From positions 1-23,069 of the IMG/VR virus record IMGVR_UViG_3300010391_000141: 23,069 nt of DNA; one strand, written 5' to 3'. The stretch is from a virus. The notes under the pieces were generated by a model, which saw only the letters and a list, made by a program, of their open reading frames with translations, had not been told where the DNA came from and did no database searches. Below are positions 252 to 18,495 of the stretch, piece by piece (within the stretch, counting starts at the first letter, position 1; every line of letters starts with the position of its first letter). The position numbers and the translations under genes are program-made.

Positions 252-2843
252 CTATCCGGCCACGACGTTCTTTGCAAACCCGCGGTAGTCAATCACCACG
301 GGCTCGTACTCGTGCCGCACCTTGTACGTGATGCGGTCCGCAAAGAACACCCGATCGGCGGTCGGCTGGTCCTGAAGCCACATCTCCGGCTCCTGCCGCC
401 CTTGCAGGAACCCCAACTCGATGCAGGGCACCTCATCCTGATTCGCAAGCACGCAAAAGTCAGTTGCGTCGGTGAACAACGGGCAGGTGATGATTCGCTC
501 GCTGTTCGGACCGAAGCGATGGAATGCCTCGTTCTTCGCGGCATCTTCCTTCTGATGCTCGTTCAGGTCCTTGGCCGTCTTCTGGAGCTGCCGCGGGATG
601 ACCAGGATCGCCGCTTCAATCCCAATCACCTTTCCGGAGTCCTTCTCCGTTTGCAGATACATGAGCTGCGCGACGGCTTCAATCTCCGCCGCCGAGAGCG
701 CCACGGTCCGCAGATTCGCCCCGTGCGAGCTGGCGTGCGCCCAGGTGACGCCGTCGAAGATCGCGGCGTTGTTGATCATCAGGTCGTACACGCGCTGCGC
801 CAGGGTGCGTCGCGCCGCGCGGCCCAGCTTGTTCACCGTATCGTTCAGGAAGCCGAGGTCGTCATTGATGATCGTCTCGCGATGGATCGTCACCAAGCCG
901 CCGCGCGTGAGGATGGCATAGGTGGCCTTCTCGTCCGTCGGCGCGGTCAGCTCCGCGTAATTGGCCACTTTCGAGTCAACGATCGGCAGGTCGCCGAAGT
1001 AGCCCACCCGGATGCGCTCCTGCGTCCGGAAATCCCGGATCGCTTTGCGGTTCCCCTGCGGCACGACCAGATCCAGGCCGAAGTCCGGCTGCATGTAGCC
1101 CTGCAACAGCAAGCGGGTCATGCTGGTGCCGAGCACATTCGGGAACGACGAGGGTAGCCAGTCTTCCGAAACGTGCCGCATCTTTTCCGGGTCAATCACG
1201 CCGGTGACGTCCCGGTCACCCGTGAAGTGGACGTAGGCTTCACGGATTCCGTGGAAAGCCGGGATGGATGAATCCAGCTTCTCGCCCTGGACCATGCGGA
1301 TCATCTGCCCTTCCTCCACGCGATTCCAGTTGTGCGTCACGCCCAGCAGCTTTTGCATCCCGATCGCGGCTTTGTCGCGCGATTCCAGGCCCACCGACGC
1401 CGGCGTGCTGGAAATTCTCGCGGGGCCCGGGGCCACGGCCCCGTAGGCCTCCCGCACCTGCCGGATCTCGCTGTCGAGCTCCTCGGGGGAGCATTCCTTG
1501 CCCTTGTAGCGCGTCCGCACCAGCTTCGCCAGCGCCGCCGGTAGTTTGGAATCGCTCAGCTTCTGCGACAGCAACATCTGCGACTCCGCGATGCGCGTGT
1601 GTTTCTGCGCCTCCTCAACCTTCTTTTGCAGCTCGGTCACCTGCGCGTCAATCTCGCCGACCGTTTCGCCGCGCTCGGCGACTTCCAACGCCGCGCCACT
1701 CAGCGCTTCGCTGGCCTTCGTCAGCAATGCGCCGTGGTCGGCATTCTCTTTGGCCGCTTCCGCCTCGATCGTGGTGGCTGTTGCCAGCCACGATTCCCCT
1801 ACGCTCGGGAGAGCACGGAGCGACTCCAGCACTTTCTTGATGGTCTCTTTCATGATTGCTCCTTTTTCGTTGCTCCGTTTGGCGGAGCTTAAATTACCCC
1901 CGCTCTCGGCCGGGGGATTTTGTTCTTCCAGCACGGCCAGCGGCGCGCCGCCGCTCGATGCCGCGCTCACCAGGTCGCAGCTCTTGATGGCCGCAATCTC
2001 TTCCACCGCCAGCGCCCGCGCGCCGCCTTCGCCGATCGGCCGGACGGCAATCATGGCGTCCACGCTAAAGCCCAGCGGCCGGCCGATTTTCCAGGCCGCA
2101 AGCATCTTGCGCTGCGCCCACTCCTCCGATTCCAGAACCGTCAACGTCGCCTCCGGGCCTTTCGCTCCCAGCGATGGATCGGAATAAAAGCCGATCAGGT
2201 CGCGGACGCTGCCGCCCTTGGCGCCCTCGCTGTGATCCGCAAAGCATCGCGCGCCATCGAGATGCGGCAAGGCTGCCTTCGCCGATTGTGGCGTCCACTT
2301 GAGAGGTAATTGCTCCTTGGCGCGGCCCGGCGCGCCATATTCGTAGCGGTTCTTGGACAGGCCGTATTCGAAAACGCGCACGCGCCACTTGCTGCCGGTG
2401 GGCTCGGCAACGAGCGAGCCGATTGCTTCGGTAATTTCCAGAGACTCAGAAGCAGCCCAGGCTTGCTCGACTTGCTCTTCCTTGCCAAGCTTGACTTCCG
2501 CGTTATCAATAATTTCGTATGGAATTTTCCAAAAAACACCGTCCCTATCTACGACGACATAATCGCCGTAGATTTCCCGAATATATGGCCAGATCGGTTG
2601 ATTCTTCTTCACTGGCCACTTTTTTAGCAGCGCGGCATCGATCAGCCGACGTACCCCATCAAAGCTAAGGCTGGAAGAGGATTCCTTTGCTTGCTTCGCA
2701 GCACCCCAGGCGATTTTGGCGGACTCTTCTTCCGTTTTCCCGGCAGCATGCGCCGCGTTGAACGCCGCCATCCAGCGCTTCTGTTCGTCCTCGCCGAGCT
2801 TCTGCACCGCTTCCGGCAACTCGGCCATGGCGTGATAGGGCAT
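252..2843 (-). CDS. ChaB-like / prohead protease / scaffold / major capsid polyprotein
   Basis: 863 residues that appear to combine four modules. Residues 8-50 resemble ChaB (LPEAVQKLG..., AFNAAH, KIAWGAAK). Residues about 150-300 resemble phage prohead proteases: CFADHSEG with H204, RPLGFSVDA with S261 as the likely nucleophile, and the family-typical end DLVSAASSGG (290-299). Residues about 330-470 are charged, helical and scaffold-like. The rest resembles the capsid part of protease-capsid fusions of Mu-like phages, ending in GFLQGRQEPEMW (near 810) and YEPVVIDYRGF. The start has AAGGAG seven bases upstream. It is the last structural gene before a hairpin-rich gap. Such proteins normally self-cleave during head maturation to release capsid protein. 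An in-frame internal start at codon 331 has its own strong ribosome-binding site. Family recognition is by motif only. Confidence 0.85.
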   Translation of the reverse strand: MPYHAMAELPEAVQKLGEDEQKRWMAAFNAAHAAGKTEEESAKIAWGAAKQAKESSSSLSFDGVRRLIDAALLKKWPVKKNQPIWPYIREIYGDYVVVDRDGVFWKIPYEIIDNAEVKLGKEEQVEQAWAASESLEITEAIGSLVAEPTGSKWRVRVFEYGLSKNRYEYGAPGRAKEQLPLKWTPQSAKAALPHLDGARCFADHSEGAKGGSVRDLIGFYSDPSLGAKGPEATLTVLESEEWAQRKMLAAWKIGRPLGFSVDAMIAVRPIGEGGARALAVEEIAAIKSCDLVSAASSGGAPLAVLEEQNPPAESGGNLSSAKRSNEKGAIMKETIKKVLESLRALPSVGESWLATATTIEAEAAKENADHGALLTKASEALSGAALEVAERGETVGEIDAQVTELQKKVEEAQKHTRIAESQMLLSQKLSDSKLPAALAKLVRTRYKGKECSPEELDSEIRQVREAYGAVAPGPARISSTPASVGLESRDKAAIGMQKLLGVTHNWNRVEEGQMIRMVQGEKLDSSIPAFHGIREAYVHFTGDRDVTGVIDPEKMRHVSEDWLPSSFPNVLGTSMTRLLLQGYMQPDFGLDLVVPQGNRKAIRDFRTQERIRVGYFGDLPIVDSKVANYAELTAPTDEKATYAILTRGGLVTIHRETIINDDLGFLNDTVNKLGRAARRTLAQRVYDLMINNAAIFDGVTWAHASSHGANLRTVALSAAEIEAVAQLMYLQTEKDSGKVIGIEAAILVIPRQLQKTAKDLNEHQKEDAAKNEAFHRFGPNSERIITCPLFTDATDFCVLANQDEVPCIELGFLQGRQEPEMWLQDQPTADRVFFADRITYKVRHEYEPVVIDYRGFAKNVVAG
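1851..1866 (-). promoter_or_regulatory. internal ribosome-binding site and in-frame ATG inside the protease-capsid gene
   Basis: On the minus strand AAAAAGGAG sits five bases before ATG at 1853, in frame with the 863-residue protein. Translation from here would give a 533-residue scaffold-capsid product lacking the protease, starting MKETIKKVLE. The match to the Shine-Dalgarno consensus is as good as any in the window. Use in vivo is an inference. Confidence 0.55.
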
Positions 2844-2846
2844 CGT

Positions 2847-3104
2847 CTACTCCTTCGGCTTCAGCTCCTTCGGCTTTGCGCGGTCGTCGCGGACGTAGAA
2901 CTTCTTCCCGTCCACCGTTACCACGCAAATCGTCCCGTCCTCGCGCGGGTTGCCATTCGCCGCGATGGTTCCTTTCGGGAAATCGCTCAGCGACTTGGGG
3001 TCGTCCGGGATCAAAACAGAATCCACCATCGTTCGGTAGATGGGATTCCCCTCCCGGTTTTTCTCCCCTGTTTTTTCCTGGTGCGATCCTGTAATCACTC
3101 GCAT
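2847..3104 (-). CDS. small phage protein between F-like and capsid genes
   Basis: 85 residues, starting MRVITGSHQEKTGEK and ending in a Lys/Pro/Glu tail (KPKELKPKE). The ATG at 3104 is chosen because the longer frame runs through a repeat palindrome and into the previous gene; GAAAGG lies about 10 bases upstream. The middle contains IPDDPKSLSDFPKGT and DGKKFYVRDDRAK, a soluble acidic/basic pattern without a domain I can name. It ends 3 bases before the capsid polyprotein start and sits where head-completion or capsid accessory proteins are usually encoded. A structural or decoration role is only a guess. Confidence 0.65.
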   Translation of the reverse strand: MRVITGSHQEKTGEKNREGNPIYRTMVDSVLIPDDPKSLSDFPKGTIAANGNPREDGTICVVTVDGKKFYVRDDRAKPKELKPKE

Positions 3105-4086: not shown

Positions 4087-5648
4087 TACTGCGTAGACCT
4101 TTGCGCTCCCGGCTCGGCCATAGCCGAGCGGTCGCGGTCCGGTTCTCCTCCTGGATTCTGATTCCTGACTCCTGACTGCTCGTCGTCCGGCAACGGACGA
4201 CGGTAATCCCTCGCCCGCTCGGCGTCGCGCTCCGCCCGCGCCTTCTGGAGCATCTCCGCCGGGTCCACTTCCACGCCCAACTGCTGCAACTGCATCGCCA
4301 GGGCGCTCGCCGCCGTTTTCTCATCCACCAGGCCGTCGGCCTTCGCCAGCGAAAGCGCCGTAACCGTCTGGCTGAACGCCGTGGCGATCTTGCCCTGGTC
4401 CTTCACGGACAGCTCCGGCATCTGCACTTCAAATTTTTGGTTGATCCCTTCGGGCAGCGCGCCGGCGGCGATCTTGGCGCTGAGCACGTACCGCAGCATC
4501 TCTTCCAGCATGAATTTCACGTCGCGCTGCCGCCGCGTGAGCATCTTCAATGCCGGGTCGCCCATCTCCAAAGCCGTGGCCCGGTTTACGTCCCCGCCTT
4601 CAGCGAACCAATGCGGCGGAAATCCGAACCCAGCCAGGATCATGGCCTTCACGGTCTTGATCATCCGGTCTTGTTCGACCGCGGCTATTTGCGGATTGAC
4701 GGCGTGCCACTCGGTGTTCTCGTTGTGCACGCGCACTGCGCCGGCGCGCGGCCCCTCGGGATTATCTTTGAGCCATTGGGCAATCTGCTCCTGGGTCGCG
4801 CCGCGCATCAGGAGGTCCCAAATAAACGCGCCCTGATGCTTGGCGTGCTGTACTGCCGCCCAGATCAGCTCATCCACCGCGCCCGCCAGGTCCGCGCCTT
4901 TGAATAGATCGCTGATGCCCCGCGTGGCCGCCCGCGACTTCCGCAGAGGCCAGTAGAAACAGTCTCCTTGCAGTTGTCCGTAGCCTTCGGACAATGGGTC
5001 TTCTTCACGCGCCACCACGCGCAGCCGCCGCGCTTCTTTCTCCTGCCAATCGCGGCGTAACACCACCGTCCTGGGGCGCGTCACGGCGCGGCCGGGGTCG
5101 CCTTCGAGCGTGGCGTATTCCACGGAGTCAATCCATAGCGGGTCGGTATCCCCGATCCGCACCTGGCCGCTGATGGGGTTGGTGTAGCATTGCACCAGCG
5201 CTTCGCCAAAGACCGACTGGCCCTGCACCAGTTGCGGGATGAATTTGTCGAGGTCGTTTTCCTGATCGTTCCAAAACGCCTCCAGCTCCTCCTGCACCGC
5301 CGGCTCTTCGGCGCGCACTGTGACGCCTTCGCCCACGATGAAGTCCACCAGAATCTCCACGCAGCGCGCCGCAATGTTGTTCGTAACGTAGAGGTAATAG
5401 GCCACGCGCTGCATGCGGTCCTGTTGCGGCAGGATCAGGTCGCGCGCGTTGGGCGACTGGTTTACCCGGCGGTAATCCGCGTCCGCGCCCCCCTGATTCG
5501 GAAACAGGATCGGGACCCCTGCTTCCGCCGCATGGATGGTCTCGGAGCCGCGCGCGCCAGCGGATTCGACAAGCTCACCACCCCGTCCCGAGCGGAGTCG
5601 AGGGGCAAGCGGCGGCCGATATCCGATATTGAGTAGCGTCAAACTCAT
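4086..5648 (-). CDS. phage portal protein (Mu gp29 / SPP1 gp6-type)
   Basis: 520 residues from the ATG that overlaps the terminase stop (ATGA, 5645-5648); a 15-codon longer frame exists but is unlikely. Recognised from the overall portal pattern: NNIAARCVEILVDFIVGEG in the N-terminal wing, a middle part with GDTDPLWIDSVEY, then AMILAGFGFPPHWFAEGG and NRATALEMGDPALKML, typical of portal stem and crown regions. It forms the dodecameric ring for DNA entry at one capsid vertex. Two stretches look repeat-derived: residues about 13-25 (PRLRSGRGGELVES, from the host-type repeat at 5562-5609) and the tail EQSGVRNQNPGGEP (from the TGACTCC run at 4155-4179). Both lie at termini that portals can usually vary. 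Confidence 0.9.
   Translation of the reverse strand: MSLTLLNIGYRPPLAPRLRSGRGGELVESAGARGSETIHAAEAGVPILFPNQGGADADYRRVNQSPNARDLILPQQDRMQRVAYYLYVTNNIAARCVEILVDFIVGEGVTVRAEEPAVQEELEAFWNDQENDLDKFIPQLVQGQSVFGEALVQCYTNPISGQVRIGDTDPLWIDSVEYATLEGDPGRAVTRPRTVVLRRDWQEKEARRLRVVAREEDPLSEGYGQLQGDCFYWPLRKSRAATRGISDLFKGADLAGAVDELIWAAVQHAKHQGAFIWDLLMRGATQEQIAQWLKDNPEGPRAGAVRVHNENTEWHAVNPQIAAVEQDRMIKTVKAMILAGFGFPPHWFAEGGDVNRATALEMGDPALKMLTRRQRDVKFMLEEMLRYVLSAKIAAGALPEGINQKFEVQMPELSVKDQGKIATAFSQTVTALSLAKADGLVDEKTAASALAMQLQQLGVEVDPAEMLQKARAERDAERARDYRRPLPDDEQSGVRNQNPGGEPDRDRSAMAEPGAQRSTQ
4155..4179. repeat. TGACTCC-type run inside the portal 3' end
   Basis: ATTCTGATTCCTGACTCCTGACTGC in units of about 7 bp (shown here as two adjoining parts: ATTCTGATTCC and TGACTCCTGACTGC). 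Translated in the portal frame as SGVRNQNP. Confidence 0.7.
5562..5609. repeat. host-type dispersed repeat in the portal 5' end
   Basis: Contains GATTCGACAAGCTCACC and CGTCCCGAGCGGAGTCGAGG, the words of the common chromosomal repeat GTCATCC-GAGCGnAGTCGAAGG. It is read in frame in the portal N-terminus. Confidence 0.65.
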
Positions 5649-7105
5649 CGCCCAAATACTCCCATGCCCGGTTCTTCCCGGTCCGCATCCCACACGCTCG
5701 GCATGCGGTCTTCCCGGCTGTCATCCCGAGCGAAGCCGACGGACCTGCTTCTCTCTTCTGGCTGCCATCCCGCCTCCGCCGCCGCCACGCCGCGATCGGC
5801 GGCATGCAGCGCCAGAGCCAGACTCCAAAATCGGTCCGCGTGACCGGCCTCGGTGCGCTCGGCGTCGAAACGGATGTTCCCAGCCGTGGTGATGATTTTC
5901 TTCACGGCGTTCAGGTCGCGCCGCAATAAGCGGTCGTCGGGGATGCGGATGGTGCGCTCCTCGAATGCTTTCTTGGTGGTAACCGCCAGGTCCTGCTTGA
6001 CCTGCATGGTGAATTGCACCGGCTCGACCCGTCCCGCAAATTTCTGCGCCAGGCGCTCGGCCAGGTCCATGCCCAGGCCGCTGGCGTCAATGCAGCCCCG
6101 CAAGGCTTTCAGTTCCGGGGCGTTCACCACGTCCGCGATGGCTTTCTCCTGCACCGCAAACTGCGCCTTCGGCATTTCCTTCAGCATCCGCACCCAAAGC
6201 GTGTCGCCGAGCTTCTCGACCAGCGTCAGCACGGAAAGGTCCTTCGTCCGGCCCACGTCAAACCCCCAGAAACAGGGCCCCTGGGCCGTCCATCCGGCGG
6301 GCAAATCTTTCGTAGCGTCCACGCTCTCGCACGAGACGATCAGCTCCAGCGGGATGTAGGTCTCCGAATCCGAATGGAACACGCATTCGTACTCCTGCTG
6401 CCAAATGTCCTCGTCGCCAATCGCCCGTCGCAGCTCGTCAATCTGGATCGGACAACCCTCTTCCACGGCCTGATAGACGTCGCACCAATGGCCGCTCCAG
6501 CCGCCCGTAAACGCCGGCTGTGATTCCGCGCCGCGAGACGGCGGCAAGCCCGGCCCGCGCGATTCCACGAGTCCCACTTCTTTGGCCAGCTCAAAGTATT
6601 TTCCGCGCTGCCCGTTGGGCGTGGAGATCACCCGCAGCTTCAGATTGCCGCGCGAGATCCGCCCAAACGCCGCCGCCCAGATGGCTTTGTCGTCTTTGTG
6701 GAACGCAAACTCGTCCAGGATCATGTTCCCGCTATAGCCACGCGCCGTGTCCGGATTGGCCGGCAGGCCGATGATCCGCGAGCCGTTCGGGAACTTCACT
6801 TCATGCTGTTGGAGCTGCGTGTTCTCGAAGAAACTGGTTTCTAAATCCGCGCCGGCAATGCGCATCGCTTGAACGTGTTCCCGAACTCTCAGCATGAATT
6901 CGAGCGACTGCCGGTCGCCGCGCGAGAGCACGATCCAAAGTCCCTTCTGCTTCAGACATTCGAATACCGCTTCAAGGGCTGCGGCGAAGGAGTAGCCGAT
7001 TTGCGTGGACTTCACCGCAATCTTGAACCGGCTGTCATCCTCCACCCAGCGTTGCTGATAGGGATACAGCAAAGGCGCTGCGGCTTTATTGGACTGCGAC
7101 GCCAT
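5645..7105 (-). CDS. terminase large subunit (Mu gp28-like)
   Basis: 486 residues, motor plus nuclease. ATPase: AVKSTQIGYS (residues 30-39) is a degenerate Walker A of the gp28 kind; NMILDEFAFH (127-136) is Walker B with catalytic Glu; VISTPNG (159-165) is the coupling motif. Nuclease: GFDVGRTKD (281-289) with D283, CIDASGLGMD with D340, and GHADRFWSLALAL with D424 form the expected RNase H-like acidic triad. The start overlaps the small terminase end by 20 bp and the stop overlaps the portal start. Two stretches look inserted: residues 181-201 (ESRGPGLPPSRGAES) and the tail near 452-466 (SRSVGFARDDSRED), the latter exactly over a host-type repeat. The enzyme packages DNA into proheads; in Mu-like phages this proceeds from integrated copies. 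Confidence 0.93.
   Translation of the reverse strand: MASQSNKAAAPLLYPYQQRWVEDDSRFKIAVKSTQIGYSFAAALEAVFECLKQKGLWIVLSRGDRQSLEFMLRVREHVQAMRIAGADLETSFFENTQLQQHEVKFPNGSRIIGLPANPDTARGYSGNMILDEFAFHKDDKAIWAAAFGRISRGNLKLRVISTPNGQRGKYFELAKEVGLVESRGPGLPPSRGAESQPAFTGGWSGHWCDVYQAVEEGCPIQIDELRRAIGDEDIWQQEYECVFHSDSETYIPLELIVSCESVDATKDLPAGWTAQGPCFWGFDVGRTKDLSVLTLVEKLGDTLWVRMLKEMPKAQFAVQEKAIADVVNAPELKALRGCIDASGLGMDLAERLAQKFAGRVEPVQFTMQVKQDLAVTTKKAFEERTIRIPDDRLLRRDLNAVKKIITTAGNIRFDAERTEAGHADRFWSLALALHAADRGVAAAEAGWQPEERSRSVGFARDDSREDRMPSVWDADREEPGMGVFGR
5719..5756. repeat. host-type dispersed repeat in the terminase 3' end
   Basis: TGTCATCCCGAGCGAAGCC followed by GACGGACCTGCTTCTCTC. This is the fullest copy of the repeat in the window. 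It is translated in the terminase frame as RSVGFARDDS. Confidence 0.75.
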
Positions 7106-7658
7106 AGAATTCCTTGAGCTTTGCGAGCTTTTCGGGGGTCAAATCGCCCGCAGCCCCTTCCATGATTTCCTTCACGCCCTCCGCTGCTTTCTTCATGCGC
7201 TCCTGCCGGCCGATCAACTGCTCCAGTTTCCTGCGGTCGAGTTCCAGCTGCTGCTCTTTCAGCGCCAGCTCCTTGTCTTTGCGTTCCGCCTCCGCGTAAT
7301 TGAGCGCCAGCTTGACCAGCAGGAATGGAGACGTTTTTTTGAGCTCGCCTTCCTGCGACAACTCGTAAAACGTCTGGAGCAGCTCGGCCCGCACGCCTTC
7401 GGTCATCTGCGCGCCCATCTTGACGGCTGTCTCCACGGCCACTTCCGTGCGCTCCAGCACCAAGGCCCGCCGACGCATCTCTCCGCGATACCAGGCCGCA
7501 TAACGATTGAAGCTCGACGTGGCGATCTTCTCTTCCGTCACCCGTTCTATTTTCGCAATGATCGCTTGCTCGCGGTAATTTCTCTCCAGGCCGTCCCGCG
7601 CAATCCTCCGGGCCTCCTCGCTCAAATCGTCCACCGCGAAATGTGGGTTTCTGGCCAT
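7086..7658 (-). CDS. DUF3486 family protein, Mu gp27-like small terminase subunit
   Basis: 190 residues beginning MARNPHFAVDDLSEEARR. The N-terminal part resembles an HTH region of DUF3486 (ARRIARDGLERNYREQAI, then ATSSFNRYAAWYR). The C-terminal half (about 110-160) is strongly charged and likely coiled-coil (KDKELALKEQQLELDRRK). It lies just upstream of, and overlaps, the gp28-type large terminase, as in Mu. Its expected role is recognition of the packaging site and recruitment of the large subunit. The ribosome-binding site is weak (GGGCAGAG). A hairpin palindrome lies in the short gap before it. Confidence 0.85.
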   Translation of the reverse strand: MARNPHFAVDDLSEEARRIARDGLERNYREQAIIAKIERVTEEKIATSSFNRYAAWYRGEMRRRALVLERTEVAVETAVKMGAQMTEGVRAELLQTFYELSQEGELKKTSPFLLVKLALNYAEAERKDKELALKEQQLELDRRKLEQLIGRQERMKKAAEGVKEIMEGAAGDLTPEKLAKLKEFYGVAVQ

Positions 7659-7683
7659 TCATACGCTCTGCCCGCTTGCTCAT

Positions 7684-7697
7684 CCCGGCTAGCCGGG
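7684..7697. repeat. CCCGGC-TA-GCCGGG palindrome
   Basis: Perfect 14-bp palindrome in the 49-bp gap between two phage genes (7659-7707), preceded by TCAT as in the other family copies. Confidence 0.7.
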
Positions 7698-7707
7698 ACG
7701 GCTCGGA

Positions 7708-8049
7708 TTAAAATTTCACTCCTGGATCTTCCCCGATTTTTTTGTCATAAAGCTGCACGCCCTTGTTCGTGATCCCTAATTGCATAATGTCGTCCGGAGA
7801 GCCTTCGCGATGCGGCCGGTCCGTCCGGAAACCCGGCAGGTCCCGGCGACGCTTGAGCTCGACGAGTCCGGCTTCCTGGAGATAGACCAGATGGAAGGTC
7901 AAGGCGTCATCGCTCATTGCCTGGCCCATGTCGTCCATGACGTAGTAGAGCGTCTTGAACGTCATCCAGGCGCGGCCGTAGCCGACCAGCGCGCGCACGA
8001 TCTCGCCGCGCTGTACGTCGTGTTTGGCCTGGTCGCCCGTTTCGCTCAC
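7708..8049 (-). CDS. winged-helix-like small phage protein (gp26 slot)
   Basis: 113 residues from a GTG that overlaps the previous stop (GTGA at 8046-8049). The pattern VRALVGYGRAWMTFKTLYYVMDD, then DALTFHLVYLQEAGLVELKRRRD looks like a winged helix with a recognition helix followed by a beta wing (FRTDRPHREG), and ends GITNKGVQLYDKKIGED. It sits between the putative holin/gp25-like gene and small terminase, the place of Mu gp26. Mu gp26 has no settled function that I can cite. DNA binding is inferred from the predicted fold only. Confidence 0.7.
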   Translation of the reverse strand: MSETGDQAKHDVQRGEIVRALVGYGRAWMTFKTLYYVMDDMGQAMSDDALTFHLVYLQEAGLVELKRRRDLPGFRTDRPHREGSPDDIMQLGITNKGVQLYDKKIGEDPGVKF

Positions 8050-8462
8050 CGCTTCAACTCCTGAATGTCGGTTTTCATTTCGTCAATTTTCAGCGCCAGC
8101 GCCCGCAACGCCACGCCCGTGTCTCGCTGCTCCGTCAGGCCGTTCTCCACCGAGCCCGCCAGCTTCCCCATGCTCCGCGCAATATCGCGTTGCGATTCGA
8201 TCCAGGGCGGCGCCCATTTGTTCATCAGCCAGACGCCGACGAAAATAATTAAGACCCCCGGCCCCCAGCCGACCAGCGGCGCGAGCACGTCGCGGTATTG
8301 CTCCAATGCCCCGGAGCGCGCCAACTCCACCAGCAACACGATCAGCGAGGTCCCCACCAAGGCGCCCGCCGCGGGCGCCATGCTCTTTCGCAGGCTGCCA
8401 TTCTTCGCAACCTTTCCATTGCTGTCATCCCGAGCGGAGGGAGGGCCCTGCTGTTCGCTCAT
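8046..8462 (-). CDS. two-TM protein with C-terminal coiled coil (holin or Mu gp25/DUF2730-like)
   Basis: 138 residues; the ATG overlaps the endolysin stop (ATGA, 8459-8462). Two hydrophobic segments are visible, GALVGTSLIVLLVELA (about 33-48) and GPGVLIIFVGVWLM (about 68-81), then a charged helical tail (LKIDEMKTDIQELKR). Placement directly after an amidase endolysin suggests a role in lysis as a holin or pinholin; the coiled-coil tail also fits the DUF2730-type proteins found before the terminase in Mu. Residues 4-15 (QQGPPSARDDSN) are encoded by a host-type repeat, so the N-terminus is probably dispensable. The two roles cannot be separated from sequence alone. Confidence 0.7.
   Translation of the reverse strand: MSEQQGPPSARDDSNGKVAKNGSLRKSMAPAAGALVGTSLIVLLVELARSGALEQYRDVLAPLVGWGPGVLIIFVGVWLMNKWAPPWIESQRDIARSMGKLAGSVENGLTEQRDTGVALRALALKIDEMKTDIQELKR
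8423..8455. repeat. host-type dispersed repeat in the 5' end of the two-TM gene
   Basis: TGTCATCCCGAGCGGAGGG followed by AGGGCCCTGCTG. It covers codons about 3-14 of the gene and is read as GPPSARDDS. Confidence 0.7.
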
Positions 8463-9960: not shown

Positions 9961-10614
9961 CTATCTCATCTGCTTCATGTTCTCGGACTGCTTCCGGTTC
10001 GGGACAATGTCCTCGTAGAGGACCGGGATCTTCTCCTGAAATTCGGCCAGCAGCGGAATCGTGACTTCGCGCATCTGCGGGTGCGCTTCGGCGCAGGTCC
10101 GCATCAGAAAGAAGTGCCTCCACTGCCGCAGGTCGTAAGTAATCCAGAGTTTGGAGGCTAGCGCATTGGGAAACACCGAGCGCGCGATCTGCGGCGGGAC
10201 GCGCTCATGGATCATTCGTCTGTATGTTTCCTCGCAACCGCCGATCGCTTGCAGCCACCACTCTTTTTCAAACGCGCTTAGCTCGGGCATGATAAAGCTC
10301 GGCGGCATTTTCTTCTCGTAGTTCACGAACCGGGTGGACTCCTGGGTGTACGCCCCGATGCGGTGCCGCACCCACTCATGCGTGATCCCGCGATCCACCA
10401 CGGCCTCCACCGTAACGACGCGATGCTCGATCACCGAGAAGTCGCCGTGCTCCATCACCACGAAGCGGATGAACCGCTCCCAGGAATTGTCTTTCTGCGC
10501 CTCCTCGGAACGGTGCGAGATCCGCGCCGCGCGCTCGCAGAACTTCAACAACTCGACCCCGGCAGCCAGATCAGGCACGTCAATGATTTTTGCGTATGGC
10601 TTTACGATCTGCAA
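9961..10614 (-). CDS. thyX: flavin-dependent thymidylate synthase ThyX
   Basis: 217 residues, the usual ThyX length. The signature RHRX7S is exact: RHR at 83-85 and S93 (RHRIGAYTQES). HGDFSVIEH near 56-64 and the dUMP/FAD-binding region NALASKLW with LRQWRHFFLMR follow in the expected order. It makes dTMP from dUMP using methylenetetrahydrofolate and FADH2, and probably raises the dTTP supply for phage replication. The start overlaps DUF3310 by 35 bp, a gene often found beside nucleotide-metabolism genes in phages. Either a phage-borne copy or captured from the host; the sequence shows no repeat insertions. Confidence 0.95.
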   Translation of the reverse strand: MQIVKPYAKIIDVPDLAAGVELLKFCERAARISHRSEEAQKDNSWERFIRFVVMEHGDFSVIEHRVVTVEAVVDRGITHEWVRHRIGAYTQESTRFVNYEKKMPPSFIMPELSAFEKEWWLQAIGGCEETYRRMIHERVPPQIARSVFPNALASKLWITYDLRQWRHFFLMRTCAEAHPQMREVTIPLLAEFQEKIPVLYEDIVPNRKQSENMKQMR

Positions 10615-12861: not shown

Positions 12862-13517
12862 GTCGCCGTCAACACCACAATCATCAATCCCGCACAGACG
12901 GCCGCGAGCGCAAAACCCGCCAGCAGCGTCCATACCCAGGCTTTCTTCCAATAGCGGACCTGCTGTTGCTCTTCGGCCAGGGCCTTCGCCGCGCGTTTGC
13001 ATTCGGCGCGGGCGATTTCCACCACCTGTTGCTCCGACTTCCGCAGCCACCTGGCCTCCGCGGCAAGACGGAACGCGTCCACCTGCGCCCTGGCAAGCTG
13101 GGGCGCATCATGGCGACATTGGAGCTCGATGCCGATCTTCACTCCCTGCTCGAACCCGGCCTGCAACAGCACTATCTCGGCTTCATCGAGCGTCTGGGCG
13201 CAGCCGTTGCAAACCACCATGCCCGCCATCGTGCCCTCCGGCGCCTCCGGCAGCGGCCCCAGGCGTCCGCACACCGCGCAATTGACTAGGCCATAGGCCT
13301 GGTCATCCTGAGTCCCGGCCTGCCGGGACGAATGGATCTGCTTTTCAGCTTGCTCCTTGCCCTGCTGGCTCCAGAACTCAATGTCGCGGACCAGGCCGGG
13401 ACAATATTTCTCCAGCCAGTTCAAGGAGAAGGAATGGGATTCTCCCCTCGATCCCGGCGCGCCGGGACCATCGGGACCCGAAGGGGGGTTCGGGATTTGC
13501 GCTTCGGGATCATTCAT
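12855..13517 (-). CDS. zinc ribbon protein with coiled coil and C-terminal membrane anchor
   Basis: 220 residues from the ATG at 13517, supported by CAGGAG and by ATGA overlap with the previous gene. A CxxC...CxxC zinc ribbon is formed by C80, C83, C103 and C106 (VNCAVCGRLG, VVCNGC). It is followed by a long charged helix (RKSEQQVVEIARAEC...LAEEQQQ) and one C-terminal hydrophobic span (TLLAGFALAAVCAGLMIVVL). Two segments are repeat-derived palindromes: PGAPGSRGE (18-26) and HSSRQAGTQDD (62-72). It looks like an inner-membrane tail-anchored protein facing the cytoplasm. Role unknown; it lies next to another zinc ribbon gene. Confidence 0.7.
   Translation of the reverse strand: MNDPEAQIPNPPSGPDGPGAPGSRGESHSFSLNWLEKYCPGLVRDIEFWSQQGKEQAEKQIHSSRQAGTQDDQAYGLVNCAVCGRLGPLPEAPEGTMAGMVVCNGCAQTLDEAEIVLLQAGFEQGVKIGIELQCRHDAPQLARAQVDAFRLAAEARWLRKSEQQVVEIARAECKRAAKALAEEQQQVRYWKKAWVWTLLAGFALAAVCAGLMIVVLTATW
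13303..13345. repeat. host-type repeat with central palindrome inside the zinc ribbon gene
   Basis: TCATCCTGAGTCCCGGCCTG then CCGGGACGAATGGATCTGC. It combines the TCATCCTGAG...GATCTGCTTTT repeat with the CCCGGC-CT-GCCGGG palindrome at 13314-13327. A second palindrome of the same family lies at 13453-13466 in the same gene. Confidence 0.72.
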
Positions 13518-14440: not shown

Positions 14441-14454
14441 CCCGGCCAGCCGGG
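14441..14454. repeat. CCCGGC-CA-GCCGGG palindrome
   Basis: Perfect 14-bp palindrome in the 119-bp gap 14421-14539, which otherwise shows no gene. Confidence 0.7.
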
Positions 14455-14776: not shown

Positions 14777-14976
14777 GATGCCCCCGGCGAGCCGGGGGAA
14801 ACTTTCTCCCAATTCTTCGCATGCCACGTATCCGCGCGTTTCAAGCCGTCGCGGCGAACCCGTATCAGCCCATTGGCATCGGGCGGGTCCACTACCTTGC
14901 CGGTTTTTGATCCACAAAAATTATTCGGTCCAATCATCCGCACGCGATCCGTCTTTTTTAACTGCGTCTCAGCCAT
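14773..14976 (-). CDS. small basic KOW/SH3-like hypothetical protein
   Basis: 67 residues. The second of two adjacent ATGs (14976) is preferred because AGGGAGG then lies 5 bases upstream. The sequence KKTDRVRMIGPNNFCGSKTG with KVVDPPDANGLIRVRRDG looks like a small SH3-type beta barrel, as in KOW-like phage proteins. The C-terminal SPGSPGAS is encoded by the CCCCCGGC-GA-GCCGGGGG palindrome at 14781-14798, so the gene seems to have run into a repeat before stopping. It follows the B-type ATPase gene by 27 bp. Confidence 0.62.
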   Translation of the reverse strand: MAETQLKKTDRVRMIGPNNFCGSKTGKVVDPPDANGLIRVRRDGLKRADTWHAKNWEKVSPGSPGAS

Positions 14977-18198: not shown

Positions 18199-18495
18199 CT
18201 ATTCCCCCAGGATGGTTTGCAATTCGCCGAGCGTGATCCGCAGGCCGCAGGCCAGGTCTCCGCAGACAATGGCGTTCTCCCCGTCCGCCACGATCGGCCC
18301 GAAACAGCGGAAACACGCCCGACTCAGGTAGCGATAGACCGCGCTCGCGTCTGCGTCCCCCGCAATTCTTTGCAGTTCCTCCCGCTCGTTCTCCCGCAAT
18401 CCGCTGTCATCCCGGCGCGCCGGGACCTGCTTTTTCTTTTCCGTGCGTTCTCCTGACTCCTGACTCCTGAATCCTGACTCCTGCGTTGCCCTCAT
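18199..18495 (-). CDS. small zinc ribbon protein with repeat-derived N-terminus
   Basis: 98 residues. The ATG overlaps the upstream stop (ATGA, 18492-18495), so the frame is fixed by coupling. Residues 3-36 are entirely encoded by repeats: TQESGFRSQESGERTE from the TGACTCC run and KQVPARRDDSG from a host-type repeat with palindrome. The likely native part starts near REELQRIAG and contains a zinc ribbon with C61, C64, C78 and C83 (RACFRCFGPIV, IVCGDLAC), then a C-terminal helix. It ends 3 bp before the transposase. It could be a regulatory factor; function unknown. Confidence 0.7.
   Translation of the reverse strand: MRATQESGFRSQESGERTEKKKQVPARRDDSGLRENEREELQRIAGDADASAVYRYLSRACFRCFGPIVADGENAIVCGDLACGLRITLGELQTILGE
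18405..18483. repeat. compound repeat: palindrome repeat plus TGACTCC run
   Basis: TGTCATCCCGGCGCGCCGGG plus ACCTGCTTTTTC at 18405-18436, then about 4.5 units of TGACTCC with one AATCCTG variant at 18451-18483. Together they replace the 5' third of the small zinc ribbon gene. Confidence 0.8.

Follow-up and report, generated by a model that had tools for sequence, protein, structure and literature searches.

The setting of the gene is the window, that is, the whole stretch of 23,069 bases of an IMG/VR virus record, whose gene set is that of a Mu-like transposable phage. Its genes for a Mu-type transposase, an AAA/TniB-like ATPase, Gam, ThyX, an amidase, terminase, portal and head morphogenesis all lie on the minus strand. 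ThyX (Thy1, E = 1.4e-39), at 9961–10614 (−), is a thymidylate synthase within a Mu-like phage.

A palindrome, CCCGGCNNGCCGGG, is repeated through the window in eight exact copies (138–151, 177–190, 7684–7697, 13314–13327, 13453–13466, 14441–14454, 14783–14796 and 18411–18424), some of the copies being upstream of gene starts. When one mismatch is allowed there are 10 copies, against 0.36 expected and a maximum of 3 in 100 shuffles. The palindrome is absent from 274 of 276 loci, the exceptions being L006, which is the window's own copy, and a single site in L219.

The protease–scaffold–capsid gene

The gene studied here is one uninterrupted ORF (table 1), to which phrog_29592 matches over nearly the full length (residues 48–862 against positions 72–891 of the 893 in the profile, E = 1e-86).

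Table 1. Features of the protease–scaffold–capsid gene in the window
Feature	Position	Strand	Remarks
Full-length ORF, protease–scaffold–capsid polyprotein	252..2843	−	863 aa, 0 internal stops
AAGGAG, Shine-Dalgarno (SD) of the full-length start	2850..2855	−	six bases before the ATG; dG −8.3
ChaB-like stretch	2691..2819	−	residues 9–51; 21.3 bits, below the Pfam cut-off of 27
Protease module, gp21/assemblin-like fold	1932..2390	−	residues 152–304; by structure comparison
His204, candidate active site	2232–2234	−	kept in 90/93 members
Ser260, candidate active site	2064–2066	−	kept in 93/93 members
Linker with internal leader	1854..1946	−	residues 300–330
Hairpin 1 in linker	1897..1916	−	6-bp stem
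Hairpin 2 in linker	1872..1888	−	6-bp stem, identical in L007
Internal SD-like site, AAAAAGGAG	1859..1867	−	dG −7.9
Internal ATG, codon 331	1851..1853	−	read 1853–1851
Helical scaffold-like module	1383..1853	−	about residues 331–487; helical in the model at ~320–470, first helix 320–343
Capsid domain, Phage_capsid_4/Mu-like gpT, HK97 fold	267..1154	−	residues 564–859
Proposed second product, scaffold-capsid	252..1853	−	533 aa; proposed from the conserved start

The protease module is a beta-rich domain. Its structure was matched to T4 gp21 (E = 2.1e-4, probability 1.00) and to herpesvirus proteases (probability 0.9–1.0), with low TM-scores (0.2–0.44) in these matches, and the matches in BFVD were phage prohead proteases, including those of the HK97 family. 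A sequence search of solved structures with this module gave no match. As far as the sequences indicate, Ser260 and His204 would be the catalytic residues. Within the linker, the segment 307–323 is predicted to be disordered (pLDDT < 50 in the structure model), and the helical module that follows may, from the same model, act as the scaffold. The structure matches of the capsid domain are HK97-fold shells and encapsulins. Two NCBIfam models, NF045541 and NF045540, stayed far below their cut-offs for the whole protein (158.4 vs. 525 and 145.7 vs. 475, respectively), with both matches confined to the capsid part.

The proposed internal start in the window

The initial annotation had placed an internal ribosome-binding site and an in-frame ATG at codon 331, between the protease-like and the scaffold-like modules, and both parts of this description are confirmed. 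In detail, AAAAAGGAG is followed by five bases (CAATC) and the ATG, and the SD energy differs little from the one at the full-length start. In the structure model Met331 falls at the beginning of the helical module, since residues 307–323 are of low confidence and the first helix spans 320–343. The window by itself is only suggestive, because another in-frame ATG, at codon 514, is preceded by a strong SD-like GGAGG comparable to that of codon 331, and the site of the window was not significant in a synonymous resampling (p = 0.146).

Two hairpins stand ahead of the internal ribosome-binding site in the window and in its relative L007, and one is found near the site in L219. The 106-base fold of the window's linker is unexceptional against shuffled sequences (z = −1.46) and the linker is shorter in most of the family, so no regulatory function is claimed for the hairpins.

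Relatives and their state of fusion

The family was sampled from 107 loci, namely 47 viral and 58 genome loci, the window and Microcystis phage Mae-JY22. Eight loci cut by a contig end, five duplicates and one unfused locus (L254) were left out of the family counts, and 93 distinct fused ORFs were retained, of which 80 are non-redundant at 80% identity. In the sets for which identity to the window was computed, it ranges from 26 to 54%. A viral scan with the single window protein as query had found no relatives.

Of the 94 distinct loci that no contig end truncates, 93 carry protease and capsid fused in one ORF, and the frame through the linker is open in every fused member (93/93). A sequencing artefact or frameshift was rejected as the cause of the fusion, given that independent contigs are fused in frame. 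Two loci differ in their arrangement. At L254:4590–5969 the protease is absent and the capsid domain is preceded by a ParB-like stretch, as read by eye from the sequence. In L253, a Rhodocyclaceae contig, the fused gene (4938–6953) has behind it an additional, unfused capsid-like gene (7172–8257, 361 aa).

Conservation of the start codon and of its leader

Conservation of the internal site among homologues had been set beforehand as a test, and its outcome was positive. In the single alignment column of Met331, methionine occurs in just 21 of 93 members. The variable linker scatters this residue across columns, and for this reason an anchor rule blind to the SD was used, by which the start at the joint of the two modules is the first ATG 8–40 codons after a conserved Gly-Gly. 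This rule takes a wrong ATG in L219, and probably also in L145 and L197; these were scored as misses, and the start of L219 was corrected before the analysis of RNA folding and before the two SD counts over 80 members given below.

A start codon is present at the joint in all 80 non-redundant members, with 76 ATG and 4 GTG. The GTG codons (L031, L264, L272 and L274) are each accompanied by a strong SD-like site, and the chance of drawing four of them from the Val codons of those genes is about 4%, which makes the substitution modest evidence for a start.

An SD-like energy of dG ≤ −5 kcal/mol is found at the joint in 78/80 members, L219 and the GTG-bearing members included. AGGA, GGAG or GAGG precedes the joint in 77/80, compared with 121 of 1,054 other in-frame ATGs. 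By the SD-blind rule, GGAG or GAGG lies upstream of the joint ATG in 62/76, compared with 74/995 elsewhere in frame. Among the in-frame ATGs past codon 60, the joint ranks first in SD strength in no more than 60 of the 80 members.

Synonymous resampling (500 times) retained GGAG or GAGG at the joint in a mean of 34.7 and a maximum of 44 of the 76 genes. The mean SD energy is −7.44 at the joint, −5.88 (sd 0.25, minimum −6.54) after resampling and −2.36 at the other ATGs. As the real count of 62 exceeds the maximum of all resamplings, this comparison of coding sequences shows selection acting on the bases of the SD, beyond the encoded peptide. Moreover, GGAG occurs in two codon registers, one giving Glu and the other Gly (39 and 13 members, respectively), and thus no single peptide accounts for the motif. 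In 76/80 members the RNA from −30 to +20 around the joint is less strongly folded than other parts of the gene, a difference accounted for in part by the GC content (53.5% at the joint vs. 62.9%).

Fusions with other proteases

Two further families of fusions were compared. The ClpP-type fusions (NF045540; mEp460 and LESphi2) comprise 79 ORFs, 34 at 90% identity, after exclusion of L055, L066 and L120, for which the rule yielded no ORF. Like the window, they carry a protease and a homologous capsid in one ORF, but the protease is unrelated (CLP_protease in Pfam). Their joint has an ATG in 34/34 members, preceded by GAGG or GGAG in 33/34 (19/855 at other ATGs; resampling maximum 21), with a long SD spacing of about 11 bases.

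The S78-type fusions, for instance those of Rhodobacter phage RcKemmy and Bordetella phage PY223, comprise 80 ORFs, 39 at 85% identity, with L150 and L152 left out on the same ground. They share with the window the single ORF, the homologous capsid and the SD-preceded start at the joint, whereas their protease (Peptidase_S78 in Pfam) has no detectable profile similarity to that of the window. The rule finds ATG in 38/39, and L143 has GTG with a strong SD-like site. GGAG or GAGG is present in 32/38 (resampling maximum 26); the difference in SD energy alone is weak (−6.49 vs. −5.74, sd 0.42).

The three families have homologous capsid parts (hhalign probability 100 and 99.9). The window's protease profile matched neither the S78 nor the ClpP proteases. 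The window-type and S78 proteases may nevertheless share a fold, as the structure matches of the former include HK97-family proteases.

Two probable products from one gene

A phage shell takes hundreds of capsid chains and, judging by lambda and HK97, only a small dose of protease. A protease–capsid fusion in a single gene is therefore a puzzle of dosage, which a conserved internal start would solve. The initial annotation had proposed that the gene makes both an 863-residue polyprotein and a 533-residue scaffold-capsid, and that it arose when two ancestral genes fused as the stop between them disappeared and the second start was retained. The first part stands as the best explanation: given the conserved start codon and SD at the joint, it is very probable that one gene yields these two proteins with a common C-terminus. 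The origin by stop loss does not share this support.

Ribosomes starting at 2843 would produce the 863-aa protease–scaffold–capsid chain, and those entering at the internal SD and ATG would produce the 533-aa scaffold-capsid chain. That initiation takes place at the joint is suggested by the conserved leader, and the short form would be the more abundant, making up the bulk of the shell. The long chain would join the same procapsid through the common scaffold-capsid part and bring a little protease along; by comparison with lambda, Mu and HK97, this protease would later remove the scaffold and itself during maturation.

If all chains started at 2843, the protease would cut itself free at the linker, protease and capsid would be made 1:1, and the internal SD and ATG would be passengers. 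The linker, predicted by the model to be flexible, would be accessible to such cleavage, and its frame is open in all fused members, which indicates that the long product matters. A polyprotein alone leaves unexplained, however, the start codon in 80/80 members and the selection, across three families, on SD bases at a constant spacing, and is considered improbable. Still less probable is that the SD-like stretch is a ribosome pause at which the protease folds first, the methionine being incidental. The position of the site exactly at the domain border agrees with a pause, but a pause requires no start codon, and in 80 members the ATG is replaced only by GTG; the low local RNA structure is also like that of true starts.

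Origin of the fusion

The gene could also be the fossil of a recent join, in which the stop between a protease gene and a scaffold-capsid gene was lost and the second start was left over. The linkers of the window (31 aa), L007 (33 aa) and L219 (60 aa) would suit such an event, since they are long and contain hairpins or repeats in addition to an A-rich leader, resembling intergenic DNA; the leader resembles that of L007's next gene, AAAAAGGAGCAA. Most members, on the contrary, have linkers of 12–22 aa, and the long linker thus looks, from these sequences, like a later change in the small clade of these three. In addition, none of the 94 distinct uncut loci has its protease and its scaffold-capsid in two genes, and all but one are fused, down to 26% identity, so the fusion is old. 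A start nested in the protease ORF also exists already in unfused relatives. A recent join is accordingly very unlikely, and the derivation from two genes by stop loss is unsupported.

Three unfused relatives of the window's protease, all actinophage capsid maturation proteases, were compared. An SD-preceded nested start is found in two of them, and the third (Frankenweenie) is ambiguous. In Molivia the ATG is codon 176, directly after the protease module; in LuckyBarnes it is codon 249 (dG −11.7), further downstream and ahead of a coiled-coil-like stretch. Molivia and LuckyBarnes (phrog_15531) thus resemble the window in the protease family and in the nested start after the protease module, and differ from it in having separate decoration and capsid genes. 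The capsid gene is annotated as separate in LuckyBarnes and Frankenweenie, and the corresponding gene of Molivia, annotated as a second head maturation protease, is probably the capsid. Plausibly, the nested start in a protease–scaffold ORF is the older feature and the capsid gene was added afterwards, in which case no stop loss at the protease–scaffold joint is needed. The join that distinguishes the window's family from lambda, Mu and the actinophages is the one between scaffold and capsid, not that between protease and scaffold.

L219 (4821–5825) comes from an Acidobacteria relative with 44% identity in the best segment; its linker has short repeats and looks intergenic while being open in frame. 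From this similarity, the host of the window may be an acidobacterium.

Implications

Two products from one gene would mean that an annotated "fusion protein" is in fact two proteins, and that many phage records may give an incomplete account of capsid start sites and masses; the predictions are cheaply testable in laboratory lambdoid phages. A wider proposal, which is somewhat better than an even bet, is that the internal start is a general, unrecognised rule of phage protease–capsid fusions, setting the protease:capsid ratio through an internal start of the major capsid protein, and that the border serves as an exchange joint at which gp21-like, S78 and ClpP proteases are placed before one homologous capsid module. 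Internal starts in protease/scaffold genes are already known (lambda C/Nu3 and Mu I/Z), and a major capsid protein made in this way would be new. A literature search found no description of an internal start in a protease–capsid fusion, which is weak evidence of absence, as subscription literature was thinly covered.

Comparison with known nested genes

The likeness to lambda and Mu drawn in the initial annotation is apt, and the nested starts of both phages are annotated in public records. In lambda, C and Nu3 share one frame and an internal start gives the scaffold alone. The capsid gene E is separate, unlike in the window, and the protease belongs to another family (annotated S49). The start of Nu3 also differs from that of the window in having almost no SD (dG −2.7), and since it is a known start, how far a start is used cannot be judged from its SD strength. 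In Mu, Z is made from a start within I that has a good SD (dG −7.4), and the capsid protein is encoded by a separate gene, T, of the related gpT family. For JBD30, scaffold, protease and capsid are reported to be separate proteins.

The structure matches point to a similar fold in the herpesvirus UL26 protease. UL26.5 is a scaffold gene nested in frame within UL26, with a C-terminus common to the protease; it is expressed from a transcript of its own, and a separate gene encodes the capsid protein. The window has the features of the nested genes of lambda and Mu, namely an N-terminal protease followed in frame by a scaffold-like module, with an internal start and a ribosome-binding site that are kept in relatives, and it departs from them in that the major capsid domain lies within the same ORF.
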